Source of the DNA: Lachnospiraceae bacterium
GTDB taxonomy: Bacteria > Bacillota > Clostridia > Lachnospirales > Lachnospiraceae
Length of the DNA stretch: 64,000 nt
Direction: 5' to 3'
Assembly: GCA_910575605.1 (NCBI GenBank)
Contig: CAJTEW010000004.1
Location: forward strand, 62,001 to 126,000
Within the stretch, counting starts at the first letter, position 1, and the number at the start of each line of letters is the position of its first letter. Below are positions 5,728 to 49,257 of the stretch, in pieces. The position numbers were made by a program, and so were the translations under genes. A model generated the notes under the pieces. It had not been told where the DNA came from. It saw nothing but the letters and a program-made list of their open reading frames with translations, and did not search any database.

Positions 5728-7701
5728 CTAATTTTCTGCAAGAGTAAACTGATCTACCAGGTGTTTTAAATTAACGGCCTCGGCAGAAAGCTCCTCACTG
5801 GCCGCCGCGCTCTCCTCAGCGGTAGCGCTGTTATTCTGCACTACTGAAGAAATCTGACTGATTCCATCGTTGACCTGCAAAACAGCTTCGGACTGTTCGC
5901 TTGATACGGTAGAAATCTGATCAATAGAGTCAATCATAGACTGGATATTTTCTACAACATCTAATAAAGCGTCAGCCGTATGCTTTGCAATCTTTGTGCC
6001 CGTCTGTACTGCTTCTGCGGAGTGTGTAATAAGCAGGGAGGTGTTCTTAGAGGCCTCTGCAGACTTGCTGGCAAGATTACGGACCTCATCTGCCACAACA
6101 GCAAAGCCTTTTCCGGCAGTACCTGCTCTGGCAGCCTCTACAGCAGCATTAAGCGCCAGGATATTGGTCTGGAATGCAATATCTTCTATGGTTTTGATAA
6201 TCTTGCTGATCTCTTCTGAACTGGAATCAATCTTTTCCATAGCCCGCATTAATTCCTGCATCTGCTGGTTGCAGACAGAGACCCCTTCACCTGCATGATG
6301 GGTCTGCTCGCGTACCTGCCGCGCACTGTCTGCAGTATCCCTGACCTGATTGGAAATCTCGCTTATCCGGGCTGCAAGCTCTTCTACGGAGCTGGCCTGC
6401 TGGACGGCACCCTGGCTTAGATTCTGGGCACTTGAAGATACCTGGTTGCTGGCGTTTGATACCTGTCCGGCAGAAGTATCGATCTGCCGAAGGATAGCAC
6501 TTAATTCTACTTTCAAGTTTCTCATGGAGTGCAGGATGCTTTGGAAATCACCGACATAGGCATCTCGGTGCTGGGACTGGATATCCAGATTCTGATTAGC
6601 CATTTCGCCCAGTAGATAACCAATATCATGAATAATTGTGGATAACCCCTCCACCAGTTCAGCGGTAGACTGCGTTAACATTCCAGTTTCATCTTTGCTT
6701 ACAACCTCTGGAACCGGAGCTTCCAGGTCACCCTCCACTAACAGGCGCATACGTTCTGCGCAGGCCTTCATTGGCCGGCTGATACTGCCTGCCAGCTTAA
6801 GAGCGACTATAATGGAAAGCAAAATAGCAAGTATCATCATCACCAGATTGATGACAATATCAAAATATGTAGTAGACAGATAATCTGACTGCGGGGCAGC
6901 AACCGCCACACTCCATCCGTCTGTGCCATTTACCGGCGCATATGCAGCAAACATACTCTTTTTGCCATTCTTATAATTTCCAAAACCATTCTTGCCCTCG
7001 CGCATGGCGGCATGGATTGACGCCAGTTCCTTCAAAGAAGAATCACCTTGTGCTTCCTTTTCAATATTTTGGACAGTGATTGTATCCAGGGTAGTATCTG
7101 CGATTGTATCACCGGAACGGTTGATCATGTATGCGCGGCTGTGCTTACTGACACAAATTGAAGAAACGATATCGTTCAGGAAGGTTTCGTGGGGAACGAA
7201 GTAAACGACTCCTTCAACATCGGACCCCTGGATTCCCTCCTTATAGATAGGAGCTGCTACCATAATAGAAAGCTCTCCTGTTACCTTACTGATCAGGGGT
7301 TCTGATACGTAGACATTGCCCTGCATTGCCTGTCTGACATATTCGCGGTCGGAATAATCTTTTCCGTCGAATATGCTGATGCCGTCAGGACCTATAATGT
7401 TTCCGCGCTGAAAATCGTGCATATTGACACGCTGGTCTATGATTGAGCGCTTTTCCTCTAATGAGACAGTCTCGTCGAGAAGCTGCGGAATGCAGCCGGT
7501 GTCCATGGCAACATTTTTGTAGGCAGTTAGTTCCTGTTCAATGCGTTCTGCCGCGAGAACTGCAGTCTCACTCATCATTTGGTCCACAGTTGAGAGGGTG
7601 CTGTTGTAGTTAAGTGTAATACTGGATGCTCCCACCACAAGCTGTGTAGCAAGGACTGTCACCATAAGACACAGGGTGATTTTTGTCCGAATGCTTTTCA
7701 T
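5728..7701 (-). CDS. Methyl-accepting chemotaxis protein with Cache sensor domain
   Basis: Transmembrane chemoreceptor of 657 residues. A first membrane helix spans about residues 7-27. It is followed by a large extracellular double-Cache type sensor to about 275, with D-Y-S-D-R-E-Y-V and P-I-Y-K motifs typical of that fold. A second membrane helix lies near 283-305, then a HAMP segment and a long cytoplasmic coiled coil. The hairpin tip that contacts CheA/CheW is clear: [15 protein letters not shown] near residue 510, then [13 protein letters not shown]. No CheR-docking pentapeptide is seen at the end. AGGAGGT precedes the ATG. No other chemotaxis gene is near, and the ligand is unknown, though Cache domains often bind amino acids or carboxylates. 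Confidence 0.93.
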
Positions 7702-35365: not shown

Positions 35366-35996
35366 GAGCAGCGAAGGACTTGCGGCAGGGAATATAAGCT
35401 TCCGGTATGGAAAGAGTGCAGACTGGATTTTAAGGGGGATAAATCTTACCGTAAAGCCGGGAGAGAGGGTTGGGTTAATAGGTCCTTCCGGATGTGGGAA
35501 GAGTACCCTTGCCAGAATTATTGCAGGGTATGAGCGGCCTTTGGAAGGAGAGGTGCTTCTTAACGGAAGTCCTTTGCCGAAAAAGGGTTACTGTCCAGTG
35601 CAGATGATATATCAGCATCCAGAGCAGGCGGTAAATCCGAGGTGGAAGATGGAGAAGATATTGTGTGAGGCATGGACGCCGGATGCAGAACTTTTAAAGG
35701 ATATGGGAATTGAAAGGGAATGGCTTAAAAGATGGCCTGCAGAGCTTTCCGGCGGCGAGCTCCAGCGTTTTTTAATTGCGCGGGTTCTGGGGCCGCAGAC
35801 AAGGTTTCTTGTCTGTGATGAAATCAGTACCATGCTGGATGTCATTACGCAGGCGCAGGTCTGGGAGATTCTTTTGAAGGCGGCAGAAAGACAGGAGCTT
35901 GGAATGCTTGTGGTGACCCATAATATGGCATTGGCAAAAAGGGTTTGTACGCGGATTGTCAGTCTGCCGGAGATCAATGGGGCAGAATATAGGTGA
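35355..35996 (+). CDS. ABC importer ATP-binding protein, DppF/NikE type
   Basis: Second ATPase subunit, 213 residues from the ATG at 35355 (a GTG at 35349 would add two residues; GAGG sits 7 bases before the ATG). Walker A G-P-S-G-C-G-K-S-T, signature L-S-G-G-E-L-Q-R-F, Walker B F-L-V-C-D-E-I-S and switch V-T-H-N-M are all present. It lacks the C-terminal cysteine extension of the long DppF form, which is usual for NikE-like proteins. It is the last gene of the five-gene operon and is followed by a terminator. Confidence 0.92.
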   Translation: MQDKSSEGLAAGNISFRYGKSADWILRGINLTVKPGERVGLIGPSGCGKSTLARIIAGYERPLEGEVLLNGSPLPKKGYCPVQMIYQHPEQAVNPRWKMEKILCEAWTPDAELLKDMGIEREWLKRWPAELSGGELQRFLIARVLGPQTRFLVCDEISTMLDVITQAQVWEILLKAAERQELGMLVVTHNMALAKRVCTRIVSLPEINGAEYR

Positions 35997-36000
35997 AAGG

Positions 36001-36028
36001 AGACGGAGTTTTGATTCCGTCTTTTTTG
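36001..36028 (+). terminator. Terminator after the ABC importer operon
   Basis: AGACGGA at 36001-36007 pairs with TCCGTCT at 36016-36022 around an 8-base loop, followed by six T residues. Confidence 0.78.
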
Positions 36029-36086
36029 TACAGGGAATATATTTGACATTCATTACCTTTTAAAAATGTTTTTGTGTTTTTAATGA

Positions 36087-36115
36087 TTGGCAAATGATAA
36101 GAAATACGTTATAAT
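36087..36115 (+). promoter_or_regulatory. Promoter of the CsoR-family gene
   Basis: TTGGCA (36087-36092) and TATAAT (36110-36115) are 17 bases apart, 40 bases before the ATG. The 160-base gap also has T-rich sequence before it; I found no clear operator for a CsoR-type protein. Confidence 0.6.
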
Positions 36116-36154
36116 ATAGTAGCCTAACTAAAGGCAGAAGGAGACAAATGGAAG

Positions 36155-36505
36155 ATGACACAACAAAGGAAGGACACGCCAAAGGAGCATCTGCATGAAC
36201 ACCCCTGTATCCATACGCATCCTCATCCACATGGACATGTACACAGCGAGGAGGAAAAGAAGGCGGTGATTAACCGGCTGTCAAAGGCAATCGGACATCT
36301 GGACGCAGTTAGGCGTATGGTGCAGAGGGACGCAGACTGCAGTGACGTGTTAATCCAGCTTGCCGCAGTGCGTTCGGCGATTAACAGTACGGGAAAGGTG
36401 GTACTGAAAAATCACTTGAATCACTGCATTGTGGAGGCAGTGGAAGAACACGATACAGAGGCAATTGAAAAATTGAATCAGGCTATAGATAAATTTATGA
36501 AATAA
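36155..36505 (+). CDS. CsoR/RcnR-family metal sensor with His-rich N-terminus
   Basis: All-helical metal-responsive repressor of 116 residues. Residues 12-30 hold nine histidines and one cysteine (H12, H14, H16, C18, H20, H22, H24, H26, H28, H30 counted on the sequence, with prolines between). The family fold follows from about residue 35 with I-N-R-L-S-K-A-I-G-H-L-D-A-V. The metal-site residues are C62, H87 and C91, with the same spacing as Cys-His-Cys in copper CsoR and nickel InrS, not Cys-His-His of RcnR. The His-rich tail suggests nickel, cobalt or zinc. It sits after a nickel/peptide-type importer, though behind its own promoter. Confidence 0.9.
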   Translation: MTQQRKDTPKEHLHEHPCIHTHPHPHGHVHSEEEKKAVINRLSKAIGHLDAVRRMVQRDADCSDVLIQLAAVRSAINSTGKVVLKNHLNHCIVEAVEEHDTEAIEKLNQAIDKFMK

Positions 36506-36547
36506 TGTATAAATAGAGAAAGAGATATGTAACAGGAGGAAATAAAG

Positions 36548-37480
36548 ATGAATGTACAAATTGAAAATGTTATGCCCCAGGGCTTTGTGTATGAAAGGGC
36601 ACAAAATGTTATTCATGGTGCAGTAAACGGAACAGCTTTTTTAATTGTTCCCGTGATGGCGGAGAATCAGTTCCGTATACAGCTTCATGCGGATATAGAA
36701 AAGAGCGGGGGGAAAGAGGACTTTCTGGAATATCTTCATGTGCTGGAGCAGAGACATCCATTTGTACAGTATGCAGGTTATAATGGAAGGAATACGGTTT
36801 CTATTAATATAGCCTCTGAGGAACAGGAGGATAAGGAGAATTTGACAATCCTTATGTCAGAGTTAGCTTCAAAATGTATGGAGTTTGGGATACATAACTG
36901 CTGCTCTAGATGTAAGAATGTTCTGCCGCTGCGGGCAGCTGCTGTAGACGGGAATCCGGTACTGCTCTGCGAGAGCTGCTTTAAGCAGGAGATTAATGGA
37001 GCAGACGGGCAGGGCATGAGAAAGGAAAATATATTTCTGGGGCTTATCGGCGCTGTTTTAGGAGCCCTGCTGGGAACAGTCTTGTGGGTGGTTATCGGTA
37101 TGGTCGGATTTATTGCCGGAATTGCCGGGTATGCTATTGTGTTCTGTGCAATGAAGGGCTATGAGATGCTTGGAAGAAAGCTTTCAAGGAAGGGAATTAT
37201 AATTTGTATTCTTCTTTCCTGTCTGATGATCGTGGGGGCGGAATATGTTTCTTTGGGTCTTGCGATTTACAAAGAGCTGGGGGATGTGTACTTTCTCTCT
37301 ATGGGAGATTCCTTTGGGCTGATTCCTGCATTTTTAGAGGAGAGCGAGGTCACCGCCGGGGTGATGAAGGATTTAATTTTTGGATATGCTCTTGCAATCT
37401 GGGCTAGTTTTTCGTCTGTAAAGGCCCGTTGGAAACAGGTGGAGCAGGAGCAGAAGCCGCATACGGTAGTTCCGTTTTAA
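36548..37480 (+). CDS. Unknown membrane protein with cysteine-pair ribbon
   Basis: I do not recognise this 310-residue protein. An N-terminal soluble region of about 115 residues is followed by a cysteine-rich patch, C-C-S-R-C and 22 residues later C-E-S-C, which looks like a small zinc ribbon. Four membrane helices come after (about residues 162-184, 188-205, 218-240 and 275-292), then a short polar tail. It starts 42 bases after the CsoR-family gene with AGGAGGA upstream, so it may share that transcript and be metal-linked. No function is assigned. Confidence 0.75.
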   Translation: MNVQIENVMPQGFVYERAQNVIHGAVNGTAFLIVPVMAENQFRIQLHADIEKSGGKEDFLEYLHVLEQRHPFVQYAGYNGRNTVSINIASEEQEDKENLTILMSELASKCMEFGIHNCCSRCKNVLPLRAAAVDGNPVLLCESCFKQEINGADGQGMRKENIFLGLIGAVLGALLGTVLWVVIGMVGFIAGIAGYAIVFCAMKGYEMLGRKLSRKGIIICILLSCLMIVGAEYVSLGLAIYKELGDVYFLSMGDSFGLIPAFLEESEVTAGVMKDLIFGYALAIWASFSSVKARWKQVEQEQKPHTVVPF

Positions 37481-37544
37481 CTTCAGAGTGATATTTATTC
37501 TATCCGGTTTATATAATAAAAAATAGTAAAGAGAGGGAACAGTA

Positions 37545-38081
37545 TTGGAAGACAACATTTTTTTGAAAAATAAAAAGGAACTTAAGCTTGCAGATTATAT
37601 GCAGGCACAGGAAAATGGCAGGGAGAATCTGGGAGCGGAGCTTCCGGTTGCCGTTTACAGGCTTTTGGAATATTCACTTAGGGAGGAGCTGGCAGAGCAG
37701 TTTGGAAAAGAGGAGCAGATCCGTCTTTTTCGAAATGCGGGTTTTCGGGCGGGAACTTATTTTGCCCGAAAGTATCTGGATTCATCTTTAGAACTGTCTG
37801 AATTTACTGCTCAGCTTCAGAGAAAGCTTGAGGAGTTTAAAATAGGCGTTCTTAGAATAGAAAAGTTTGATGAGGATACAGGAAGGGCGGTCCTTACTGT
37901 GTCTGAGGATGCGGATTGTTCAGGGCTTCCTCTTTTGGGAGAGACAGTCTGCAATTATGACGAGGGATTTCTTTCAGGAATTCTTACCTCCTATACGGGA
38001 AAAAGCTATACCGCGACAGAGGTGAACTGCTGGGCGACTGGTGACAGAGTATGCCGGTTCCGGGCAGATATAGACGAATAA
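37545..38081 (+). CDS. V4R-domain protein
   Basis: A 178-residue protein whose C-terminal half (about residues 90-175) matches the V4R (4-vinyl reductase) fold: L-P-L-L-G-E-T-V-C-N-Y-D-E-G-F-L-S-G-I-L, then V-N-C-W-A-T-G-D-R-V-C-R-F. V4R domains are small-molecule-binding modules found in signalling proteins and bacteriochlorophyll enzymes; the conserved cysteines here suggest ligand or metal binding. The start is TTG at 37545, with GAGAGGG 7 bases upstream. It is the first gene of a five-gene signalling set and is probably its sensor input, which is an inference. Confidence 0.82.
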   Translation: MEDNIFLKNKKELKLADYMQAQENGRENLGAELPVAVYRLLEYSLREELAEQFGKEEQIRLFRNAGFRAGTYFARKYLDSSLELSEFTAQLQRKLEEFKIGVLRIEKFDEDTGRAVLTVSEDADCSGLPLLGETVCNYDEGFLSGILTSYTGKSYTATEVNCWATGDRVCRFRADIDE

Positions 38082-38098
38082 GGGGGAATGGCGCAGAG

Positions 38099-39352
38099 AT
38101 GGACACAAATAAGAATTGCGAAATGTTATTTGAATACTTAAGAGGAATTCTTTATGATTCCTGGATGGAGCAGTTTGACGTCGGTGAGCTAAGTGAGCCA
38201 TATAAGGATTTAGGCCGGGGGCTTCAGTATCTGGAGAACGCAGTGAAAGAGCTGGTGCTGTATTCAGCAGAGCTTTCGAAAGGGAATCTGTCAGTAGAAT
38301 TTCCAAAGGAATATAATTTTTTGTGTGAAAATCTCAAAAATCTTCATGCGAACCTGAATCACCTGACATGGCAGGCACAGCAGGTGACAAAGGGGGATTA
38401 TTCCCAGAATGTAGCATTTTTGGGAGAGTTTTCCACTGCATTTAATGAGATGACAAGGCAGCTAAAGGAAAGAGAGGAAAAGCTTCAGGAAGAAGCGGTA
38501 AAGGCAGAGCGGCGTGCAGAGATGATCGAGGGTTACAATGAGCTTCTAGTGGAGATGCTGAGCAAGCGGAAGGAATGGCTCCTTGTTGTAGACAAAGACA
38601 GTAAGGAAATCATCTACTGTAACAAGAAAAAGCAGGTAGGAGAGGTAGACAAGTCCTTTTGCCAGACCTGTAAGCGGCGTCTTTCCTTTCAGTCCGAGCT
38701 TTTAAAATGGGACAGTAATGAACAGTACAAGGTGTGGGAGATGGAGGGTGAGCTTGACACGGCATACCGTGTTACCTCTTTCCAGATGGAATGGAAGGAG
38801 CGGTCTTCCTATGTGCATGTGGTAGTAGATATTACAGACGAGAAGCGAAATGTCCGTAACCTTACCAGCAAGGCAAACCATGATCCGCTAACAGGGATTA
38901 AAAACAGGGCCTTTTTTGAAGAATATATGGAAATCGTTCTCTGCGAAGAACTGGAGGCAACATTGTGTTACTTGAAGCTTGACGGCTTAGATTATGTAAA
39001 TGAAACACTGGGGCATCAGGAAGGTGATTCCTATATTCAGAATGTTGTGGAGATTGTCAGGAAAAATTTCCGGGGTGGCGACACCTTTGCGCGGATTGGC
39101 GGAGACGAATTCTGTGTAGTTCTTACCGGTAACATGGCAGAGCTGATGAACAGGAAGCTTGCGGAAATTCTGCGGGAGTTTAAAGAAGTGTTCTATGGAA
39201 AATATCAGTGCAGTTTCAGCTATGGTATTGTGGAAGTAAAAGGAAAGGATAATAATATGTCCTTACAGGAGATTTTAAAATGTGCAGAAGAGGTTATGCA
39301 TGAGCACATACAGAGGGAGCTGGAAAGAGACTCTAAAGCCGGCAGAGCATAA
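38099..39352 (+). CDS. Diguanylate cyclase (HAMP-like, PAS-like, GGDEF)
   Basis: A 417-residue cytoplasmic protein. A HAMP-like helical region (about 55-125) contains L-S-K-G-N-L-S-V-E and a second V-T-K-G-D-Y-S copy. A coiled coil and a PAS-like region (about 145-255) follow, the latter with F-C-Q-T-C. The GGDEF domain (about 260-405) starts N-H-D-P-L-T-G-I-K-N-R and has an intact R-I-G-G-D-E-F active site. It should make cyclic di-GMP. The in-frame ATG at 38051 lies inside the upstream gene; the ATG at 38099 gives a cleaner start, with AGGGGG about 13 bases ahead. No membrane helix is present. The receiver gene follows closely. Confidence 0.88.
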   Translation: MDTNKNCEMLFEYLRGILYDSWMEQFDVGELSEPYKDLGRGLQYLENAVKELVLYSAELSKGNLSVEFPKEYNFLCENLKNLHANLNHLTWQAQQVTKGDYSQNVAFLGEFSTAFNEMTRQLKEREEKLQEEAVKAERRAEMIEGYNELLVEMLSKRKEWLLVVDKDSKEIIYCNKKKQVGEVDKSFCQTCKRRLSFQSELLKWDSNEQYKVWEMEGELDTAYRVTSFQMEWKERSSYVHVVVDITDEKRNVRNLTSKANHDPLTGIKNRAFFEEYMEIVLCEELEATLCYLKLDGLDYVNETLGHQEGDSYIQNVVEIVRKNFRGGDTFARIGGDEFCVVLTGNMAELMNRKLAEILREFKEVFYGKYQCSFSYGIVEVKGKDNNMSLQEILKCAEEVMHEHIQRELERDSKAGRA

Positions 39353-39379
39353 AAACAGAATTTGGAAGGAGACGGTAAC

Positions 39380-39742
39380 ATGCAAAAATGTATTTTAGTA
39401 GTAGACGATGACGCGATGAATCTGAGGAGGACAAAAATTATTCTGGAGAAGCAGTACGTTGTGATCCTGGCAGAGTCAGGAGAAAAAGCCCTCGAAAAGC
39501 TTGAAAACAATAAGATTGATCTGGTTCTTCTTGATATTGAAATGCCGGGGATGAATGGCATTGAGACTTTTGAGCATATGAAAGGCCGCTATGATGATAT
39601 ACCTGTAATTTTTCTGACGGCATCAGGTTATGAAGAGGATGTAAAGAGCGCCATCAGGCTGGGAGCGGTTAATTACCTGAAAAAGCCGTTTCTCCCTCAG
39701 GAGCTTCTGAATCGGATTGCAAAGGAGTTTGAGATGAAATGA
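39380..39742 (+). CDS. Stand-alone response-regulator receiver protein
   Basis: A 120-residue protein that is only a receiver domain. The acidic pair is in L-V-V-D-D-D, the phosphorylation site is D52 in L-L-D-I-E-M-P-G-M-N-G, the switch Thr is in F-L-T-A-S, and the conserved Lys is in L-K-K-P-F. No output domain is present, so it likely shuttles phosphate or binds a partner such as the neighbouring GGDEF protein or the HPt domain of the next kinase. A TTG at 39362 is possible but the ATG at 39380 has GGAAGGAG upstream. Its stop overlaps the next start by four bases. Confidence 0.92.
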   Translation: MQKCILVVDDDAMNLRRTKIILEKQYVVILAESGEKALEKLENNKIDLVLLDIEMPGMNGIETFEHMKGRYDDIPVIFLTASGYEEDVKSAIRLGAVNYLKKPFLPQELLNRIAKEFEMK

Positions 39743-42303
39743 GAGAACAGGAGCAGACAAGTATCCATCTGCTTTTAGCGGTTACCTCCAGTACCTTTAG
39801 TATAATGCTTATTGTGCTTACGCTGGCCTTATCCTGGGAGATGTGGATTATTCCGTTGATTTTGATTGGCTGTTTTATTGTATGGTGGTTTCACATTGGA
39901 AGAGATGGCTCGGAAATGCTATATGAGAATCTGTGTGCCGGCCTCATGCTGATTGAATTTTTCTTTTTTGGGGTGCACAGGGATATTCTTTTTGATATAC
40001 CTGTTGTAGCATGTATATTGCTGCTTATTTTTTCGCTGAGGGATAGAAGGAGACTGCTGTATATGACAGGCGGTCTCTATATTCTGGAGCTTTTGTATCA
40101 TTTCTTTATTTTCCATACAATTTCCTCTCACATGAGCGTACAGGAGACAACGCGGCTTGTGCTTGGAGGTATAGTAACGGTAGGTGCGTTTTTGATTGCA
40201 AGATACCGGCTAGACAGAAGAAGAGCTGCAAGAAGGAGATATGAGACTACTCTTGCAGAGCTGGAGGCTGCAGGACGGCAGAATGCAGAGTTTTTGTCAA
40301 ATGTATCTCACGAGCTTCGGACTCCTATTAATATGGTAATCGGAATCAGCGAAGTTGCTCTTGGAAAGGATATTTCCCCGGAAATCAGGGAAGAAATGCA
40401 GTCTATTCAGATGGCAGGCAAGAGACTATCAAATCAGATTAATAACATGATTGATTACACAGAAATTGTAGAGGGTACGCTGACGGCAGAAAAGGAAGAA
40501 TATATGCCTACGTCGCTGATTAATGATGTGATTACTCTGACTGCTATACAGAACAGCAGGCGTAAGCTGGAGATGGTTTTTGATGTTGAACCTAAACTTC
40601 CTTCGGTATTAATTGGGGATGCAGAAAAAATTTCTCATGTGCTTAAAATTCTTCTGGAGAATTCTATAAAATTTACAGAAGAGGGCGGTATCTATGTGTA
40701 TGTCGGATATCGTGAGGAAGACTACGGCGTTAACCTTCTGATAGATATTTATGATACGGGTATTGGTATGACCTCATCTCAGCTTATACAGATTTGTGAT
40801 GATTTTTACCAAGCAGATTCCGGGAGCCGCCGGTTTGCAGGCGGTCTGGGCCTTGGAATACCTATAGCCCGGGGGCTTCTTCATGCGATGGGTGGATTTG
40901 TTCATTTTGACAGCAGGGGAGAGCATGGACTGGAAGCACATATTATCATTCCTCAGGGTGTGGGGAATGCCAGGCCGGGAATTGAGGTGGCGGATGTAGA
41001 TAAGATCTGTATTGCATGTTATTTCAGACCAGAGAAATACATCTGTGACGATATTAGAATATATTATGACAATATGATTCTTCATATGGTGGAGGGGCTT
41101 GGCATTGAAGGATATCAGGCTCATAATTTTGAAGGGCTTTTAAAGCTTCACCGTGAACATAAGCTGTCACATGTATTTACTGCACAGACGGAATATGAAG
41201 AGAATCCTTCCTATTATGAAGAGCTGGCAGAGACAATGCCGGTTGTAATAATTGCGGATAAGAATTTTACCTTGAAATCCAGAAATAATCTGTTGGTGCT
41301 GCGTAAACCGTTTTTTGCACTTTCTGTTGTGAATCTGTTAAACGGCGAAGCACAGAGAAATGGAGCGGAAGAAAACGGCGCTCTTTCCCACAGGCCATTT
41401 TCCTGTAAAGGGGTTCGTGCGCTTGTTGTGGATGATGAGGAGATGAATCTGGTGGTGGCCAGAGGAGTTTTAGGCAGCTACGGTATGCAGGTAGATACCT
41501 GCCTAAGCGGAAAAGCAGCGATAGATAGGTGCAGGAATATCTCATATGATATCGTATTTTTAGACCATATGATGCCTGGATTTGACGGTGTTGAGACCTT
41601 AAAGTACATTCGTGAGATGGACAATGGAGTTTATAAGGAGCTGCCGATAGTCGCATTGACGGCAAATACTATCAGCGGTGCGAGGGAAATGTTTAAGCAC
41701 GAGGGCTTTACGGAATTTATACCGAAGCCGATAGAGCGTTCTGTCCTGGAGAGAGTACTGAGGCGGGTACTGCCTGAGCAGTGTATACAATATGAAATGG
41801 AACCTGTCTTATCTAATGTGCTGGAAGAGGAATCGGTCTCATCTAGTGTGTTGGAAGAGGAGATATACATATCGCATACGGATACGACAGAAACAGGGGA
41901 AGAGTCATTCGAGGCAGATGAAGATGTATCTGAGGAATCGGATCGCTTTTCGGCGCTCTGGGAGGCCGGCATTAATGTGAAGATGGGACTGGATTACTGC
42001 TGCGGGGAAGAGGAATTTTATGACGAAATGCTGCAGATGTTCAGCTCTCAGTATGAGGAAAAGAAGAACGAGATTATTGCTTTTTATGATGCGGATAACT
42101 GGGCAGACTATGCAGTTAAGGTCCACGCTTTAAAGAGCACATCCCTTACAATTGGCGCGGAGGAACTGTCAGCATATGCAAAGGAACTGGAACTGGCGGG
42201 AAAGAGAGGGGATGTGGATTATATTAGGGAGCATCACCTTACGCTTCTTCGCATGTACGAAGAGGTTTGTGAGAGAATAGCTGAAATACAGGAGGAAATA
42301 TAG
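39739..42303 (+). CDS. Hybrid histidine kinase with degenerate receiver, receiver and HPt
   Basis: An 854-residue membrane kinase. About six helices cover residues 10-155. HisKA has its phosphorylated H191 in S-H-E-L-R-T-P-I-N. The ATPase domain (about 285-410) shows N-S-I-K-F-T, D-T-G-I-G-M and G-G-L-G-L-G-I. Residues about 425-540 look like a receiver that has lost its phospho-Asp. A true receiver follows (about 560-680, D609 in F-L-D-H-M-M-P-G). A linker with two similar V-L-E-E-E segments leads to an HPt domain with H796 in V-H-A-L-K-S-T-S. Together these allow a four-step phosphorelay in one chain. It overlaps the receiver gene by four bases. Confidence 0.93.
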   Translation: MREQEQTSIHLLLAVTSSTFSIMLIVLTLALSWEMWIIPLILIGCFIVWWFHIGRDGSEMLYENLCAGLMLIEFFFFGVHRDILFDIPVVACILLLIFSLRDRRRLLYMTGGLYILELLYHFFIFHTISSHMSVQETTRLVLGGIVTVGAFLIARYRLDRRRAARRRYETTLAELEAAGRQNAEFLSNVSHELRTPINMVIGISEVALGKDISPEIREEMQSIQMAGKRLSNQINNMIDYTEIVEGTLTAEKEEYMPTSLINDVITLTAIQNSRRKLEMVFDVEPKLPSVLIGDAEKISHVLKILLENSIKFTEEGGIYVYVGYREEDYGVNLLIDIYDTGIGMTSSQLIQICDDFYQADSGSRRFAGGLGLGIPIARGLLHAMGGFVHFDSRGEHGLEAHIIIPQGVGNARPGIEVADVDKICIACYFRPEKYICDDIRIYYDNMILHMVEGLGIEGYQAHNFEGLLKLHREHKLSHVFTAQTEYEENPSYYEELAETMPVVIIADKNFTLKSRNNLLVLRKPFFALSVVNLLNGEAQRNGAEENGALSHRPFSCKGVRALVVDDEEMNLVVARGVLGSYGMQVDTCLSGKAAIDRCRNISYDIVFLDHMMPGFDGVETLKYIREMDNGVYKELPIVALTANTISGAREMFKHEGFTEFIPKPIERSVLERVLRRVLPEQCIQYEMEPVLSNVLEEESVSSSVLEEEIYISHTDTTETGEESFEADEDVSEESDRFSALWEAGINVKMGLDYCCGEEEFYDEMLQMFSSQYEEKKNEIIAFYDADNWADYAVKVHALKSTSLTIGAEELSAYAKELELAGKRGDVDYIREHHLTLLRMYEEVCERIAEIQEEI

Positions 42304-42304
42304 T

Positions 42305-45013
42305 GTGTTAAAAAAGTGGTTTGACAAAGTTTTTGACCATAAGATCAGCCTACGGGAGCGTATGTTTCGTCTAGTTACAGGCATCAGTATGATCGCACTG
42401 GTATTTATATTGCTGATGAGCAGATATTCTATAAATTTGTATGTATTAGCGGGAAGCCTCATATACATGTTTGTAGTTTTAAACGTCAGCATCCAGAAGG
42501 ACTGTATTAATACAGGGGCAACGGCTATTGTAGTACTTTTACTGCTGCTTTTTCCAGTCAGCTTTTTTACAGCAGGAGGAGCGTATGGCGGGGCCCCCGA
42601 GTGGTTTGTGCTCTGCTTCATATATATAACCATAGCCCTGGAGGGCAGGCGTAAGGGTGTGTTTTTCCTGATTTGTATGGCGGAGACGGTTCTCTGCTAT
42701 TATATTGCCTACTATTATCCTCAGTTTGTAGTACAGAATACTGCGGCAGAGGCGCACTTTGATTCTGTGCGGTGCGTCATTCTGACAGGTGTTTTAACAA
42801 GTGTGCTCCTTTTGTTTCAAAACAATCTTTATGAGGAGGAGAATAAGCTTTCTATACAGCAGAAAAAGGAAATTGAGGAGCTTAATCAGGCGGAAAATCA
42901 CTTTTTCTCCAGTATGAGCCATGAAATCCGTACGCCGATTAATACAATTATAGGACTTAATGAGATGATTCTGCGGGAGGCTATCTCAGAGGAAGTTGCC
43001 GAGAATGCCAGGAACATTCAGGGAGCCAGCAAACTGCTGCTTACTCTCATTAATGATATTCTGGACTTGTCCAAAATTAAATCTGGAAAAATGGAGATTA
43101 TAAATGTATCCTATGAAACAGGAAAACTCTTTTCAGAGATTGTTAATATGATCTGGATTAAGGCGAAGGAGAAAGGACTGGATTTTCGGCTTAAGGTGGA
43201 TGCCTCTATTCCCAGTATGCTCTGTGGTGACGAGGTGCGCATCAAGCAGGTGCTTATTAATCTCCTTAATAATGCTGTGAAATATACAAATGAGGGTTCT
43301 ATTATCTTGTCTGCCCGGTGCGAGCGTCTGGGACTTAACAGAGTTCGCGTCTGGTATTCTGTGGAGGATACCGGACAAGGGGTGAAAAAAGAAAATATTC
43401 CTTATCTTTTTAATGCATTTCGGAGGGTGGACGAAGAAAAAAACCGTCATATTGAAGGAACCGGACTGGGGCTTAGCATCGTTCGTCAGCTGGTGGAGCT
43501 GATGGGCGGTGAGATTAGTGTGAACAGTGTGTATACGAAGGGCTCCACGTTTATTGTGACCTTAGAGCAGGACATTGTGGATGATAAAGAACTGGGAGTT
43601 TTTACATTGGATTCCCGGGTAAAAAGTCACGAGGGAGAGCAGTACAGGCAGAGCTTTGAGGCGCCGGAGGCACATCTTCTCATAGTGGATGACAATGAGA
43701 TGAATCTGATGGTTGCACAAAAGCTTCTTTCAGATACGAAGATTCAGATAGACACCGCTTTAAGCGGTGCGGAATGTCTAAAGCACACACAGCTTTTTCA
43801 TTATGACGGTATTTTGATGGATCATCTTATGCCAGAGATGGATGGTATAGAATGTTTCCATGCATTGCGCACACAGCCTGGCGGATTGTGTCAGGATGTG
43901 CCGGTTGTTGCGCTGACTGCTAACGCGGGCAGTGATAACCAGCTTCTCTACCGGAAAGAGGGCTTCAGCGGCTATCTGGCAAAACCGGTCAGCGGCGCTC
44001 TTTTAGAAGCGGCAGTTTTAAGTATTCTGCCCAAAGAGCTGGTGAACTTAAGTGAGGAGGCAAGTCAGTCGGAAATTGGGAAGGATGTATTGATATTTGA
44101 ACAGGCTCAGAGAATCTTAAATTTAGTTACAACAGACAGTGTATGTGATCTTCCTGAATCTCTTAAAAGGGAGTTTCGTATCTCGGTGTGTCCTTATTAT
44201 GTCTGTACAGATGAGGGCCGTTTTCTGGATGAGGTAGAGCTTAAAGCGGATGAGCTTCTTTTCCATATGGCGGAAGGAAAAAGCGGCGCTTCTCAGCCGC
44301 CGGATATAGAGGATTATGAAAGATTTTTTGCAGAGAAGCTCACGGAAGCTCAGAATGTGATCCATATTACGATGGCGAAGAATGTAAGCCGGGGATATAA
44401 GAACGCAGTGGAGGCTGCTAAATCTTTTGAAAATGTGACGGTGATTGATTCCGGACATTTGTCAAGCAGTATGGGTCTTTTGGTGCTGTATGCCGCTTAT
44501 ATGGCAGAGCATCATGCTTCAAAGGCAGAAATTGTGCAGACGGTGACAAAGCTTAGACGATACATTTCCTCAGCCTTTATCATCAACAGTACGCATATGA
44601 TGTGCCGTGCCGGGAAAATTCCCAAAAGGATACAGGCTGTCTGCGACGCCCTTCTGCTGCATCCGGTTCTTGAGCTGAGGAAGAGCAGGATGGTAGTGGG
44701 CAGTATGGAAATGGGTAATTTTAGCCGTGTTATTAAAAAGTATGTCCGGAAGGTACTTTTAAATGCGAGGAATATTGACCGCCGCATCCTATTTATTACT
44801 TATTCAGGCATGGATGAGAAAAGCCTTAAGTATATTCAGGAGCTGGTACAGCAGTACTGCCCCTTTGAGAGAGTTTACCTACAGAAGGCTTCTTCAGCTA
44901 TTTCAAGTAACTGTGGTCCGGGTTCATTTGGACTGTTATTTATGAAAAAAAATGAGGTGTCTATTTCCTATTCTGAGTATTCAAAATCAGATACGGCTGA
45001 TGTGGACAATTGA
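42305..45013 (+). CDS. Hybrid histidine kinase fused to a DegV-type lipid-binding domain
   Basis: A 902-residue protein with a rare domain order. About six membrane helices (residues 14-175) are followed by HisKA with H206 in S-H-E-I-R-T-P-I-N, and an ATPase domain with N-N-A-V-K-Y-T, D-T-G-Q-G-V and G-T-G-L-G-L-S. A receiver spans about 458-575 with D506 in M-D-H-L-M-P-E-M-D-G. From about 603 to 893 there is a whole DegV domain: T-T-D-S-V-C-D-L-P, then G-A-S-Q-P-P, V-I-H-I-T-M-A, V-T-V-I-D-S and a final C-G-P-G-S-F-G-L-L-F. DegV/FakB proteins bind fatty acids. The usual Thr of T-S-Q-P and His of H-T-G-P-G are Ala and Asn here. Start is GTG with AGGAGGA upstream. Confidence 0.9.
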   Translation: MLKKWFDKVFDHKISLRERMFRLVTGISMIALVFILLMSRYSINLYVLAGSLIYMFVVLNVSIQKDCINTGATAIVVLLLLLFPVSFFTAGGAYGGAPEWFVLCFIYITIALEGRRKGVFFLICMAETVLCYYIAYYYPQFVVQNTAAEAHFDSVRCVILTGVLTSVLLLFQNNLYEEENKLSIQQKKEIEELNQAENHFFSSMSHEIRTPINTIIGLNEMILREAISEEVAENARNIQGASKLLLTLINDILDLSKIKSGKMEIINVSYETGKLFSEIVNMIWIKAKEKGLDFRLKVDASIPSMLCGDEVRIKQVLINLLNNAVKYTNEGSIILSARCERLGLNRVRVWYSVEDTGQGVKKENIPYLFNAFRRVDEEKNRHIEGTGLGLSIVRQLVELMGGEISVNSVYTKGSTFIVTLEQDIVDDKELGVFTLDSRVKSHEGEQYRQSFEAPEAHLLIVDDNEMNLMVAQKLLSDTKIQIDTALSGAECLKHTQLFHYDGILMDHLMPEMDGIECFHALRTQPGGLCQDVPVVALTANAGSDNQLLYRKEGFSGYLAKPVSGALLEAAVLSILPKELVNLSEEASQSEIGKDVLIFEQAQRILNLVTTDSVCDLPESLKREFRISVCPYYVCTDEGRFLDEVELKADELLFHMAEGKSGASQPPDIEDYERFFAEKLTEAQNVIHITMAKNVSRGYKNAVEAAKSFENVTVIDSGHLSSSMGLLVLYAAYMAEHHASKAEIVQTVTKLRRYISSAFIINSTHMMCRAGKIPKRIQAVCDALLLHPVLELRKSRMVVGSMEMGNFSRVIKKYVRKVLLNARNIDRRILFITYSGMDEKSLKYIQELVQQYCPFERVYLQKASSAISSNCGPGSFGLLFMKKNEVSISYSEYSKSDTADVDN

Positions 45014-45031
45014 TTTCTTCCATAGTATAAT
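45003..45031 (+). promoter_or_regulatory. Promoter of the small gene at 45071
   Basis: TGGACA (45003-45008, overlapping the end of the kinase gene) and TATAAT (45026-45031) are 17 bases apart, 39 bases before the ATG. Confidence 0.55.
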
Positions 45032-45070
45032 CAAAATATAGAGTTTTTATATTTAGGAGGGAATATACCA

Positions 45071-45364
45071 ATGAAAGTTTACGATTCAGTAAAAAAAGAA
45101 GAGCTTGAGGTTGACGGTACAAAGGGACTGATCGACATTATGAGAAGCGGACGTCAGGTCGATCTTTATCTTAAGGAGAAGAAGTCAGACGCTGACGGCT
45201 ATATGAGCTGGGATGTGGAGCACTGGTCGAGCATTGACGTGAAGAGATTTATCCGGTGCTATTCTTTGGAAGGAAGAGTTCTTGGAGAATCTACAGGACA
45301 TAATATTTACGATTTGGAGAATGAGTTTAAACCGGAAGAGGCGGCGAAGGTAGAACTTAGCTAA
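45071..45364 (+). CDS. Small acidic protein of unknown function
   Basis: A 97-residue soluble protein that I do not recognise. It is rich in Asp, Glu and Lys, has no membrane segment or cysteine pair, and contains two tryptophans in S-W-D-V-E-H-W-S-S-I-D. AGGAGGGA precedes the ATG, a promoter lies just upstream and a hairpin terminator just downstream, so it looks like a complete single-gene unit between the kinase cassette and the heat-shock operon. Being a real gene is well supported; its role is open. Confidence 0.75.
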   Translation: MKVYDSVKKEELEVDGTKGLIDIMRSGRQVDLYLKEKKSDADGYMSWDVEHWSSIDVKRFIRCYSLEGRVLGESTGHNIYDLENEFKPEEAAKVELS

Positions 45365-45369
45365 AAAAG

Positions 45370-45404
45370 ACAGGAGGAGTTCAAGATGAGCTCCTCTGTT
45401 TTTG
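45370..45404 (+). terminator. Terminator after the small acidic protein gene
   Basis: GAGGAG at 45374-45379 pairs with CTCCTC at 45391-45396, extended by ACAG/TGT pairing with a bulge, followed by a TTTTT run. Confidence 0.6.
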
Positions 45405-45474
45405 TGCAAAATATAGTGAGGAGAAGCTTTAAAATTACATGTTAAATTATAAAATAAAAAATGTATAAACTGTG

Positions 45475-45503
45475 TTGACAAACGGGAAACGTAGTGATAA
45501 ATT
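45475..45503 (+). promoter_or_regulatory. Promoter of the hrcA-grpE-dnaK-dnaJ operon
   Basis: TTGACA (45475-45480) and TAAATT (45498-45503) are 17 bases apart, with the CIRCE operator starting about 14 bases further on. Confidence 0.7.
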
Positions 45504-45517
45504 AGTATTCGAAGATG

Positions 45518-45544
45518 TTAGCACTCAAAATTAAAGAGTGCTAA
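45518..45544 (+). promoter_or_regulatory. CIRCE operator (HrcA binding site)
   Basis: The perfect inverted repeat TTAGCACTC, nine bases, GAGTGCTAA is the classic CIRCE element. It lies between the promoter and the hrcA start, where HrcA binding blocks transcription until heat stress titrates GroEL-assisted HrcA activity. Confidence 0.98.
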
Positions 45545-45571
45545 CAGAGAAAACCGAAAAGGAGGAGGCAG

Positions 45572-46615
45572 ATGGTTTCAGAGCATGAATTAAACGAACG
45601 CAAGCTCACTATTCTTCATGCGATTATTAAGACGTACTTAGAGACTGGCGAGCCAGTAGGCTCGAGAACGATTTCCAAGTATACGGATCTTAATTTAAGC
45701 TCCGCCACAATCCGCAATGAGATGTCGGATTTAGAGGAACTGGGATACATCGTACAGCCTCATACGTCGGCAGGACGTATTCCTTCGGATAAAGGCTACC
45801 GCCTCTATGTTGATATGCTGATGGAAGAAAAAGAGCAGGAGTTAAACGAGAGAGAGGATCAGATGCTTGAGAAGGCGGATAAGATGGAGAAGCTTCTTAA
45901 GCAGGCAGCCCGGGTTCTTGCAACAAATACTAATTATGCGACGATGGTTTCTACACCTGTGAACAGTGCGAATAAATTAAAGTTTATTCAGCTTTCGATG
46001 GTAGATGAGGAGCAGATTATTGCAGTAATCGTTCTTGGAGGTAATGTTATTAAGAACAGGATTATTAATGTAGAAGAGCCCTTAAGCAATGAAAATCTGC
46101 TGAAGCTTAACATGCTTCTAAATACAACGCTTAACGGAATGTCTATTGAGGAGATTAATCTGGGATTAATTGCAAGACTTAAGGAGCAGGCGGGCATACA
46201 CAGCGAGGTGATTGGAAATGTTCTTGACGCAGTGGCGGATGTGATTCAGCTTGATGAGGATATGCAGATATATACAAGCGGGACGACGAATATTTTCAAA
46301 TATCCTGAGCTTTCGGATAAGCAGAGCGCACAGGAGATTATAAGTGCATTTGAAGAGAAGCAGCAGCTTACGGAGCTGGTGGCACAGACGCTGTCAAAAG
46401 AGGAGAACACTGGAATTCAGGTTTATATCGGAGACGAGACGCCGGTGCAGAATATGAAGGATTGCAGTGTTGTTACAGCAACGTATGAATTAGGCGACGG
46501 CATGAAGGGAACGATAGGTATTATCGGACCAAAGAGAATGGATTATGAGCATGTGTTAAAATCGATGAAACGGCTGCAAAGTGAGCTGGATCAGATGTTT
46601 CATAAGAAAGAATAA
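45572..46615 (+). CDS. hrcA: Heat-inducible transcription repressor HrcA
   Basis: Repressor of the heat-shock operon, 347 residues. The N-terminal winged helix has R-K-L-T-I-L-H-A-I-I, Y-L-E-T-G-E-P-V-G-S-R-T-I-S-K and S-S-A-T-I-R-N-E-M-S-D-L-E-E-L-G-Y-I. Then come the conserved P-H-T-S-A-G-R-I-P-S-D-K-G-Y-R and a GAF-like dimer and inducer domain. A CIRCE operator directly upstream shows autoregulation. AAGGAGGAGG precedes the ATG. Confidence 0.98.
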   Translation: MVSEHELNERKLTILHAIIKTYLETGEPVGSRTISKYTDLNLSSATIRNEMSDLEELGYIVQPHTSAGRIPSDKGYRLYVDMLMEEKEQELNEREDQMLEKADKMEKLLKQAARVLATNTNYATMVSTPVNSANKLKFIQLSMVDEEQIIAVIVLGGNVIKNRIINVEEPLSNENLLKLNMLLNTTLNGMSIEEINLGLIARLKEQAGIHSEVIGNVLDAVADVIQLDEDMQIYTSGTTNIFKYPELSDKQSAQEIISAFEEKQQLTELVAQTLSKEENTGIQVYIGDETPVQNMKDCSVVTATYELGDGMKGTIGIIGPKRMDYEHVLKSMKRLQSELDQMFHKKE

Positions 46616-46636
46616 GGAAGAAAGGTGGAATAACCC

Positions 46637-49257
<2,621 letters not shown>

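Follow-up and report, generated by a model that had tools for sequence, protein, structure and literature searches.

A hybrid histidine kinase carrying a FakB-type DegV domain in a two-kinase operon of Lachnospiraceae

The locus and the fusion gene

The window analysed here, a stretch of 64,000 nucleotides from a Lachnospiraceae bacterium, contains a packed run of genes encoding a V4R-domain protein, a GGDEF protein, a receiver, a hybrid kinase ending in an Hpt domain and a hybrid histidine kinase that continues beyond its receiver into a DegV domain. The genes and, for the last of them, the protein domains are as follows:

37545..38081, + strand: V4R-domain protein, overlapping the GGDEF gene (Pfam)
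38051..39352, + strand: GGDEF diguanylate-cyclase protein, GGDEF motif intact (Pfam, translation)
39380..39742, + strand: stand-alone CheY-like receiver (Pfam)
39739..42303, + strand: partner hybrid kinase, HisKA-HATPase-REC-Hpt, 854 aa (Pfam)
42305..45013, + strand: hybrid histidine kinase-DegV fusion, TM-HisKA-HATPase-REC-DegV, 902 aa (ORF and Pfam)
42305..42853, + strand: N-terminal membrane region of the fusion, residues 1-183, about five hydrophobic segments (hydropathy scan)
42896..43087, + strand: HisKA, phospho-acceptor H206 (Pfam, residues 198-261, 2.9e-16)
43226..43570, + strand: HATPase_c (Pfam, residues 308-422, 1.6e-26)
43679..44017, + strand: receiver (Response_reg), phospho-acceptor D506 (Pfam, residues 459-571, 8.1e-20)
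44126..44947, + strand: DegV, FakB-type fatty-acid-binding fold, residues 608-881 (Pfam, 9.4e-40)

The fusion is read in one uninterrupted frame from a GTG start, with a ribosome site (AGGAGG, 42290-42295) 9 bases 5' of the GTG, and all of its Pfam matches lie above the cut-offs. An earlier note, made from this sequence alone, had described membrane helices, HisKA, ATPase, receiver and a full DegV domain in one hybrid kinase and had proposed a domain search: Pfam matched HisKA, HATPase_c, Response_reg and DegV in that order within the single ORF, and the hydropathy scan agrees with the helices, the N-terminal 183 residues having no Pfam match. The phospho-acceptor His, the ATPase domain and the receiver Asp of a hybrid histidine kinase are all present. 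The two residues that the note had picked as phospho-acceptors, H206 and D506, are correctly placed and invariant in all 50 rows of an alignment of the window protein with 49 of the 72 full-length relatives (in which numbering starts one residue later).

A single base separates the stop codon of the partner kinase from the GTG of the fusion. For the receiver, ATG 39380 was preferred as the probable start over the listed TTG 39362, to fit orthologue lengths. The operon is flanked by a 310-aa ORF (36548-37480) with two hydrophobic segments and a 97-aa ORF (45071-45364), neither of which has a Pfam or NCBIfam match; hrcA follows (Pfam) and then, by the look of their translations, grpE, dnaK and dnaJ. 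An Rfam search over 35500-47500 gave nothing above the gathering scores.

Distribution, kinase pairing and neighbourhood

The earlier note had also called for a count of the architecture across genomes, and the architecture proved to be recurrent. A scan of GTDB contigs gave 90 confirmed loci, the best 80 of which were taken as the close set. Histidine kinase and DegV share one ORF in 78 of these 80 (five of them, L055, L066, L069, L073 and L083, being short or interrupted in draft contigs), the other two, L048 and L065, being cut by contig ends, so that two genes joined by error is an unlikely explanation. L037, among the nearest named relatives, reaches 93% over the whole protein. According to record titles, the close form is present in the named isolates Acetatifactor muris DSM 23669, Sporofaciens musculi and Schaedlerella arabinosiphila, which makes a test of the ligand practical. 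At the level of the window's family, sampled at one genome per genus, at least 36 of 200 genomes carry DegV fused to kinase or receiver parts (46 loci, L117-L127, L130-L136 and L137-L164, in 33 genomes, plus G000, G013 and G057; G174 and G163 in the family count are contig-edge fragments). In a phylum-wide sample of 398 genomes, DegV occurs with kinase parts in at least three, G000, G444 and G180, all of the same family; this count covers 29 loci checked besides the window's own and leaves out G552, of another family, with a 603-aa frame and a DegV match. A match was found in 52 plasmid records, all below 60% identity, and the neighbours of the best-matching record show a standalone DegV and no fusion.

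Variants of the design were seen as well. A close kinase paralogue, TM-HK-REC of 598 aa, is without any DegV (L226:5642-7438). In two loci (L131:5790-8378 and L132:5951-8563) DegV sits on a kinase-like protein with a GGDEF protein encoded downstream; Pfam finds HATPase and DegV in L131, with no HisKA or receiver, and the phospho-His box is not visible in either protein, which are possibly pseudo-kinases with DegV.

The fusion is strongly paired with a second kinase. An upstream histidine kinase partner was present in 73 of the 73 close loci with enough sequence, 69 found by script and four by eye (L051, L068, L086 and L109, where the HK-REC-Hpt gene lies outside the gap rule); Hpt was detected in 68 of the 69 script-found partners, and the receiver gene in 66 of 69 relatives, the exceptions being L066, L072 and L085, the last with its partner split in two ORFs. 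Further out, 39 of 47 fusion loci have a second histidine kinase in their operon, a figure lowered by several loci cut by contig ends, versus 6 of 40 other hybrid kinases, taken from the same genome set and from the top of the match list rather than at random (Fisher P 1e-10). The 47 are the 46 divergent loci named above plus the window, and some genomes give two or three.

The position of Hpt changes between the partners. In six loci (L121-L125 and L156) the fusion reads HK-REC-DegV-Hpt and the adjacent partner is HK-REC without Hpt, an absence that concerns the adjacent partner only, as L123 and L124 have a further HK-REC-Hpt gene nearby. In L126, L130, L148 and L152 Hpt is on a separate small ORF, although L126 may be a split HK-REC-Hpt gene and the Hpt ORF of L152 is cut by a contig end; Hpt placement in these divergent loci is Pfam-confirmed for L121, L125 and L130 only. 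L130:7032-13140 also has its membrane region, HK-REC-DegV part and Hpt on separate ORFs of one locus. From the pairing together with the migration of Hpt, we infer that both kinases may feed a single common relay. The recurrence of this design beside a partner kinase in related gut bacteria suggests a lipid-responsive signalling system.

Regulators near the fusions are bare receivers, REC-HD-GYP, REC-GGDEF or REC-GGDEF-GGDEF-REC-HD-GYP proteins. A c-di-GMP enzyme of any kind is found in the operon at 20/47 fusion loci vs 10/40 controls (P 0.11), a receiver-linked one at 15/47 vs 5/40 (P 0.04), and one within 5 kb at 25/47 vs 12/40 (P 0.03). This enrichment is a modest, weak signal. A c-di-GMP-specific operon was set aside as strong evidence, given that a quarter of the control operons have such neighbours. 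The module has relatives of the V4R and GGDEF genes next to it in 6 of 81 loci (the window and 5 of the 80 others): they precede it in the window, L037 and L038 and follow it in L062, L107 and L112; under the clustering limits used, they are the sole non-core genes recurring in more than five of the 81. A lipid-gene neighbourhood common to the loci was rejected, since recurrence at that level is limited to the three core genes, V4R and GGDEF, and no lipid-metabolism gene common to the neighbourhoods was found across the 81 loci.

The DegV domain and its origin

The C-terminal part of the fusion is a true member of the DegV family with a FakB fold, matching PF02645 with 137.1 bits (cut-off 27; profile positions 4-279 of 280) and NCBIfam TIGR00762 with 151.6 bits (cut-off 99.7). 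It is evolving under purifying selection, as indicated by a dN/dS of about 0.08 against both L037 and L038 (for L037, dN 0.061 and dS 0.775). DegV diverges faster than the kinase core in 42 of 44 cases and the membrane region faster than DegV in 43 of 44, so the main input could lie in the membrane region.

Residues T62, S95, R173, R205 and H270 of FakB1 correspond to S663, S695, K771, M803 and N869 in the window domain. The earlier note had the FakB Thr changed to Ala and the His to Asn. The first change is ruled out, as HMMER and MAFFT agree in placing Ser663, and not Ala662, opposite Thr62, so that the hydroxyl is kept; the second is right, and two more were found with MAFFT, R173 to K771 and R205 to M803. 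The window domain thus has neither of the arginines, 205 and 173, that mark a functional FakB. Of 124 distinct fused domains, 2 keep Arg205, described as key for FakA binding in PMC8892158, and 122 have lost it, whereas all 61 compared standalone DegVs keep it; in these counts the repeats L076 (= L075), L138 (= L083) and L200 (= L130) were counted once. The genome of the window also encodes two Dak2-domain proteins and five standalone DegVs; the five DegVs all retain Arg173 and Arg205, and in three of them the TSGRRH signature is complete. Set against the loss of Arg205 in the fusions, this makes it unlikely, as far as sequence can tell, that the window domain serves FakA. The earlier note had argued for a sensor rather than a FakA carrier: the second half of that argument holds through Arg205 and no longer through the Thr, and a sensor is not the sole reading, because DegV follows the receiver and domains in that place are usually output domains.

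His270 is replaced by Asn in 119 of the 124 domains, and the latch residue of FakB, R173, needed for catalysis, is still R in 64 of 124. All 78 distinct close domains, the window included, have Ser at sites 62 and 95 and an N-C pair at 270-271, so contacts of these hydroxyls with a ligand head remain plausible; in the divergent fusions both serine sites vary, with S95 in 23 of 46. In FakB1 the charge on the fatty acid seems to be balanced by a network in which Thr62, Ser95, Ser171 and His270 join the carboxylate (PMC8892158); of the sites of this network the window domain has S663 and S695, with N869 in place of His270. Two further proteins were noted. L128 encodes a standalone 290-aa DegV (at 7320, +) with His at docking site 205 and His270 kept; it lies outside the compared standalone set and extends Arg205 loss beyond relay DegVs. 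L129:6117-7901 encodes Dak2-FakA_M-DegV, apparently a fatty acid kinase in one chain, in which site 270 is Asn and site 205 is Phe.

In a DegV tree rooted on FakB1 (FastTree, a quick method, with long branches present; 93 rows, namely 12 of 79 close, 46 divergent plus L197, 15 of 34 and 12 of 27 standalone, five others, FakB1 and FakB2), one clade with support 100 unites the fused rows with L165, L166 and the contig fragment L048, and a single change suffices for the label. L165 (6691-7542, 283 aa) and L166 (6676-7584, 302 aa) are free-standing DegVs that also have Asn at site 270; each is translationally coupled to an HK-REC-Hpt gene, its start overlapping that gene's stop, and no second kinase was seen in their operons. 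They branch basally, outside the fused clade (98), and are likely pre-fusion forms, suggesting that recruitment came first and fusion later. A single origin of this DegV subfamily, with recruitment before fusion, is therefore likely on the tree.

A whole-protein tree of 77 rows places 27 rows in one clade (99) nested among Lachnospiraceae: all 20 Oscillospiraceae rows, one Acutalibacteraceae, one Peptostreptococcaceae and five unranked (loci within L051-L116, e.g. L088, L097, L104 and L106). Most of these 27 loci are, judging by isolate names, presumably from mouse gut. The nesting would fit one transfer of the module between orders among gut bacteria, and the presence in the clade of four named strains, Oscillibacter sp. 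1-3, Neglectibacter sp. X58, Acutalibacter sp. 1XD8-36 and Anaerotruncus colihominis JM4-15, argues against bin contamination alone.

Possible roles of the domain and known systems

The reading we favour, at a probability of about 0.47, is that a retired FakB-type carrier acts as ligand-binding regulatory domain in a two-kinase phosphorelay. The fusion and a second membrane kinase would serve a single relay, and the DegV domain of the fusion, which would no longer dock on FakA, would bind or release a long-chain acyl ligand taken up from the inner membrane leaflet; Asn in place of His270 may indicate a neutral ligand head group. The state of the ligand would change the kinase/phosphatase balance or the transfer from REC to Hpt, with phosphate passing, we infer, from H206 to D506, from there to the partner's Hpt and finally to the receiver encoded upstream. 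The output would probably be c-di-GMP, through GGDEF, in the window operon, and an HD-GYP or GGDEF response regulator in several relatives.

The fold and family of the domain, the purifying selection on it, the two-kinase pairing, the moves of Hpt and the loss of Arg205 all speak for this reading. Two observations argue most strongly for DegV acting on the kinase: in L165 and L166 an unfused DegV stands beside HK-REC-Hpt, where it can work without fusion to a REC of its own, and the domain evolves more quickly than the kinase core, as is common for input domains. Its position after REC, unusual for an input domain, weighs most heavily on the other side; further points against the favoured reading are the change of R173 to K in the window, the variation of sites 62 and 95 in divergent fusions, the faster divergence of the membrane region, the weak c-di-GMP enrichment, the finding of no lipid gene common to the neighbourhoods, the standalone L128 with Arg205 lost, and the paralogue that has no DegV.

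Effector domains directly follow REC in response regulators, and in the same way DegV might be the output, opened or closed by receiver phosphorylation so that the kinase controls capture or release of fatty acids at the membrane. The fusion is membrane-anchored, and a dynamic region of FakB1 opens for ligand exchange at membranes, according to PMC8892158. We nevertheless consider an output role unlikely, since DegV is a separate protein beside HK-REC-Hpt in L165 and L166, follows a kinase-like part with no receiver detected in L131 and L132 (Pfam for L131 only, phmmer for both), and, with FakA docking lost, would release acyl groups to no evident acceptor.

The strength of the two-kinase pairing and the loss of several ligand and docking residues of FakB could also mean that DegV is a ligand-free protein-protein adaptor or dimerisation module tying the two kinases together; we think this improbable in view of the FakB-like fold and of the serines and N-C pair held invariant across the close domains. 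To a similarly small degree we credit a sensor for another hydrophobic ligand that has no carboxylate, such as an acyl amide, an alcohol or a glyceride. The near-universal change of His270 to Asn speaks for it, as this removes a member of the seemingly charge-balancing FakB1 network (PMC8892158), but L129, presumably an enzyme, has Asn too, and thus Asn alone does not exclude fatty acids. That the domain continues to serve FakA as a FakB substrate carrier and came to sit on a kinase by accident is scarcely credible: family membership and the two Dak2-domain genes would allow it, against the near-complete loss of Arg205 and five standalone DegVs in the same genome with both arginines.

For the regulatory-domain reading a wider history can be sketched, in which Lachnospiraceae took up a FakB-type carrier a single time as receptor of a two-kinase phosphorelay, at first as a free protein and later in fused form, its ligand pocket and c-di-GMP outputs diversified, and the system spread to other orders among gut bacteria. 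We offer this scenario tentatively, as the odds are against its holding in full.

To our knowledge, little is settled about the means by which gut anaerobes perceive free fatty acids or their own acyl state. A conserved kinase that contains its own FakB-type domain gives a direct way in, as its ligand can be pulled out and identified, and it could tie lipid state to c-di-GMP in these bacteria. If the wider scenario is true, this would be a Gram-positive system reading intracellular acyl state directly into a phosphorelay and c-di-GMP. Every single domain of the fusion is already known, and domain databases may well list the architecture; in the parts of the open-licence PMC literature that were covered, we found no description of a DegV-histidine-kinase fusion.

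Compared with FakB/DegV proteins (PF02645, TIGR00762), the window domain is C-terminal on a hybrid kinase and has Met, Lys and Asn for Arg205, Arg173 and His270. The kinase shares with the BarA/TorS/ArcB type the HisKA-HATPase-REC order and intact H and D; in hybrid kinases Hpt or nothing usually follows REC, whereas here DegV follows and Hpt is on the partner. Among the best 25 of 125 listed matches, it falls below the curated cut-off of every equivalog. The resemblance to RpfC/RpfG, whose signal DSF is an unsaturated fatty acid, is one of logic only. In RpfC/RpfG a hybrid kinase signals to a receiver-HD-GYP regulator (PMC3744752), and several divergent DegV loci likewise pair HK-REC-Hpt with REC-HD-GYP; here, however, there are two kinases and a DegV domain, in Bacillota, and the window operon, with a bare receiver and a separate GGDEF protein, has no REC-HD-GYP regulator, HD-GYP being found in some divergent relatives only. 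An indirect link of the Fak system to a histidine kinase is known from S. aureus, where activity of the SaeRS two-component system requires Fak (PMC5539427). L129 likewise carries DegV on a kinase, with Asn at 270 and Arg205 lost, but with fatty-acid-kinase domains rather than a histidine kinase. DhaQ, a DhaK-like co-activator of the Dha operon, is a receptor derived from the metabolic DhaK and acts on a transcription factor, without the histidine kinase fusion of the window protein; if the favoured reading is true, the DegV domain would be a parallel case of a metabolic carrier turned receptor.
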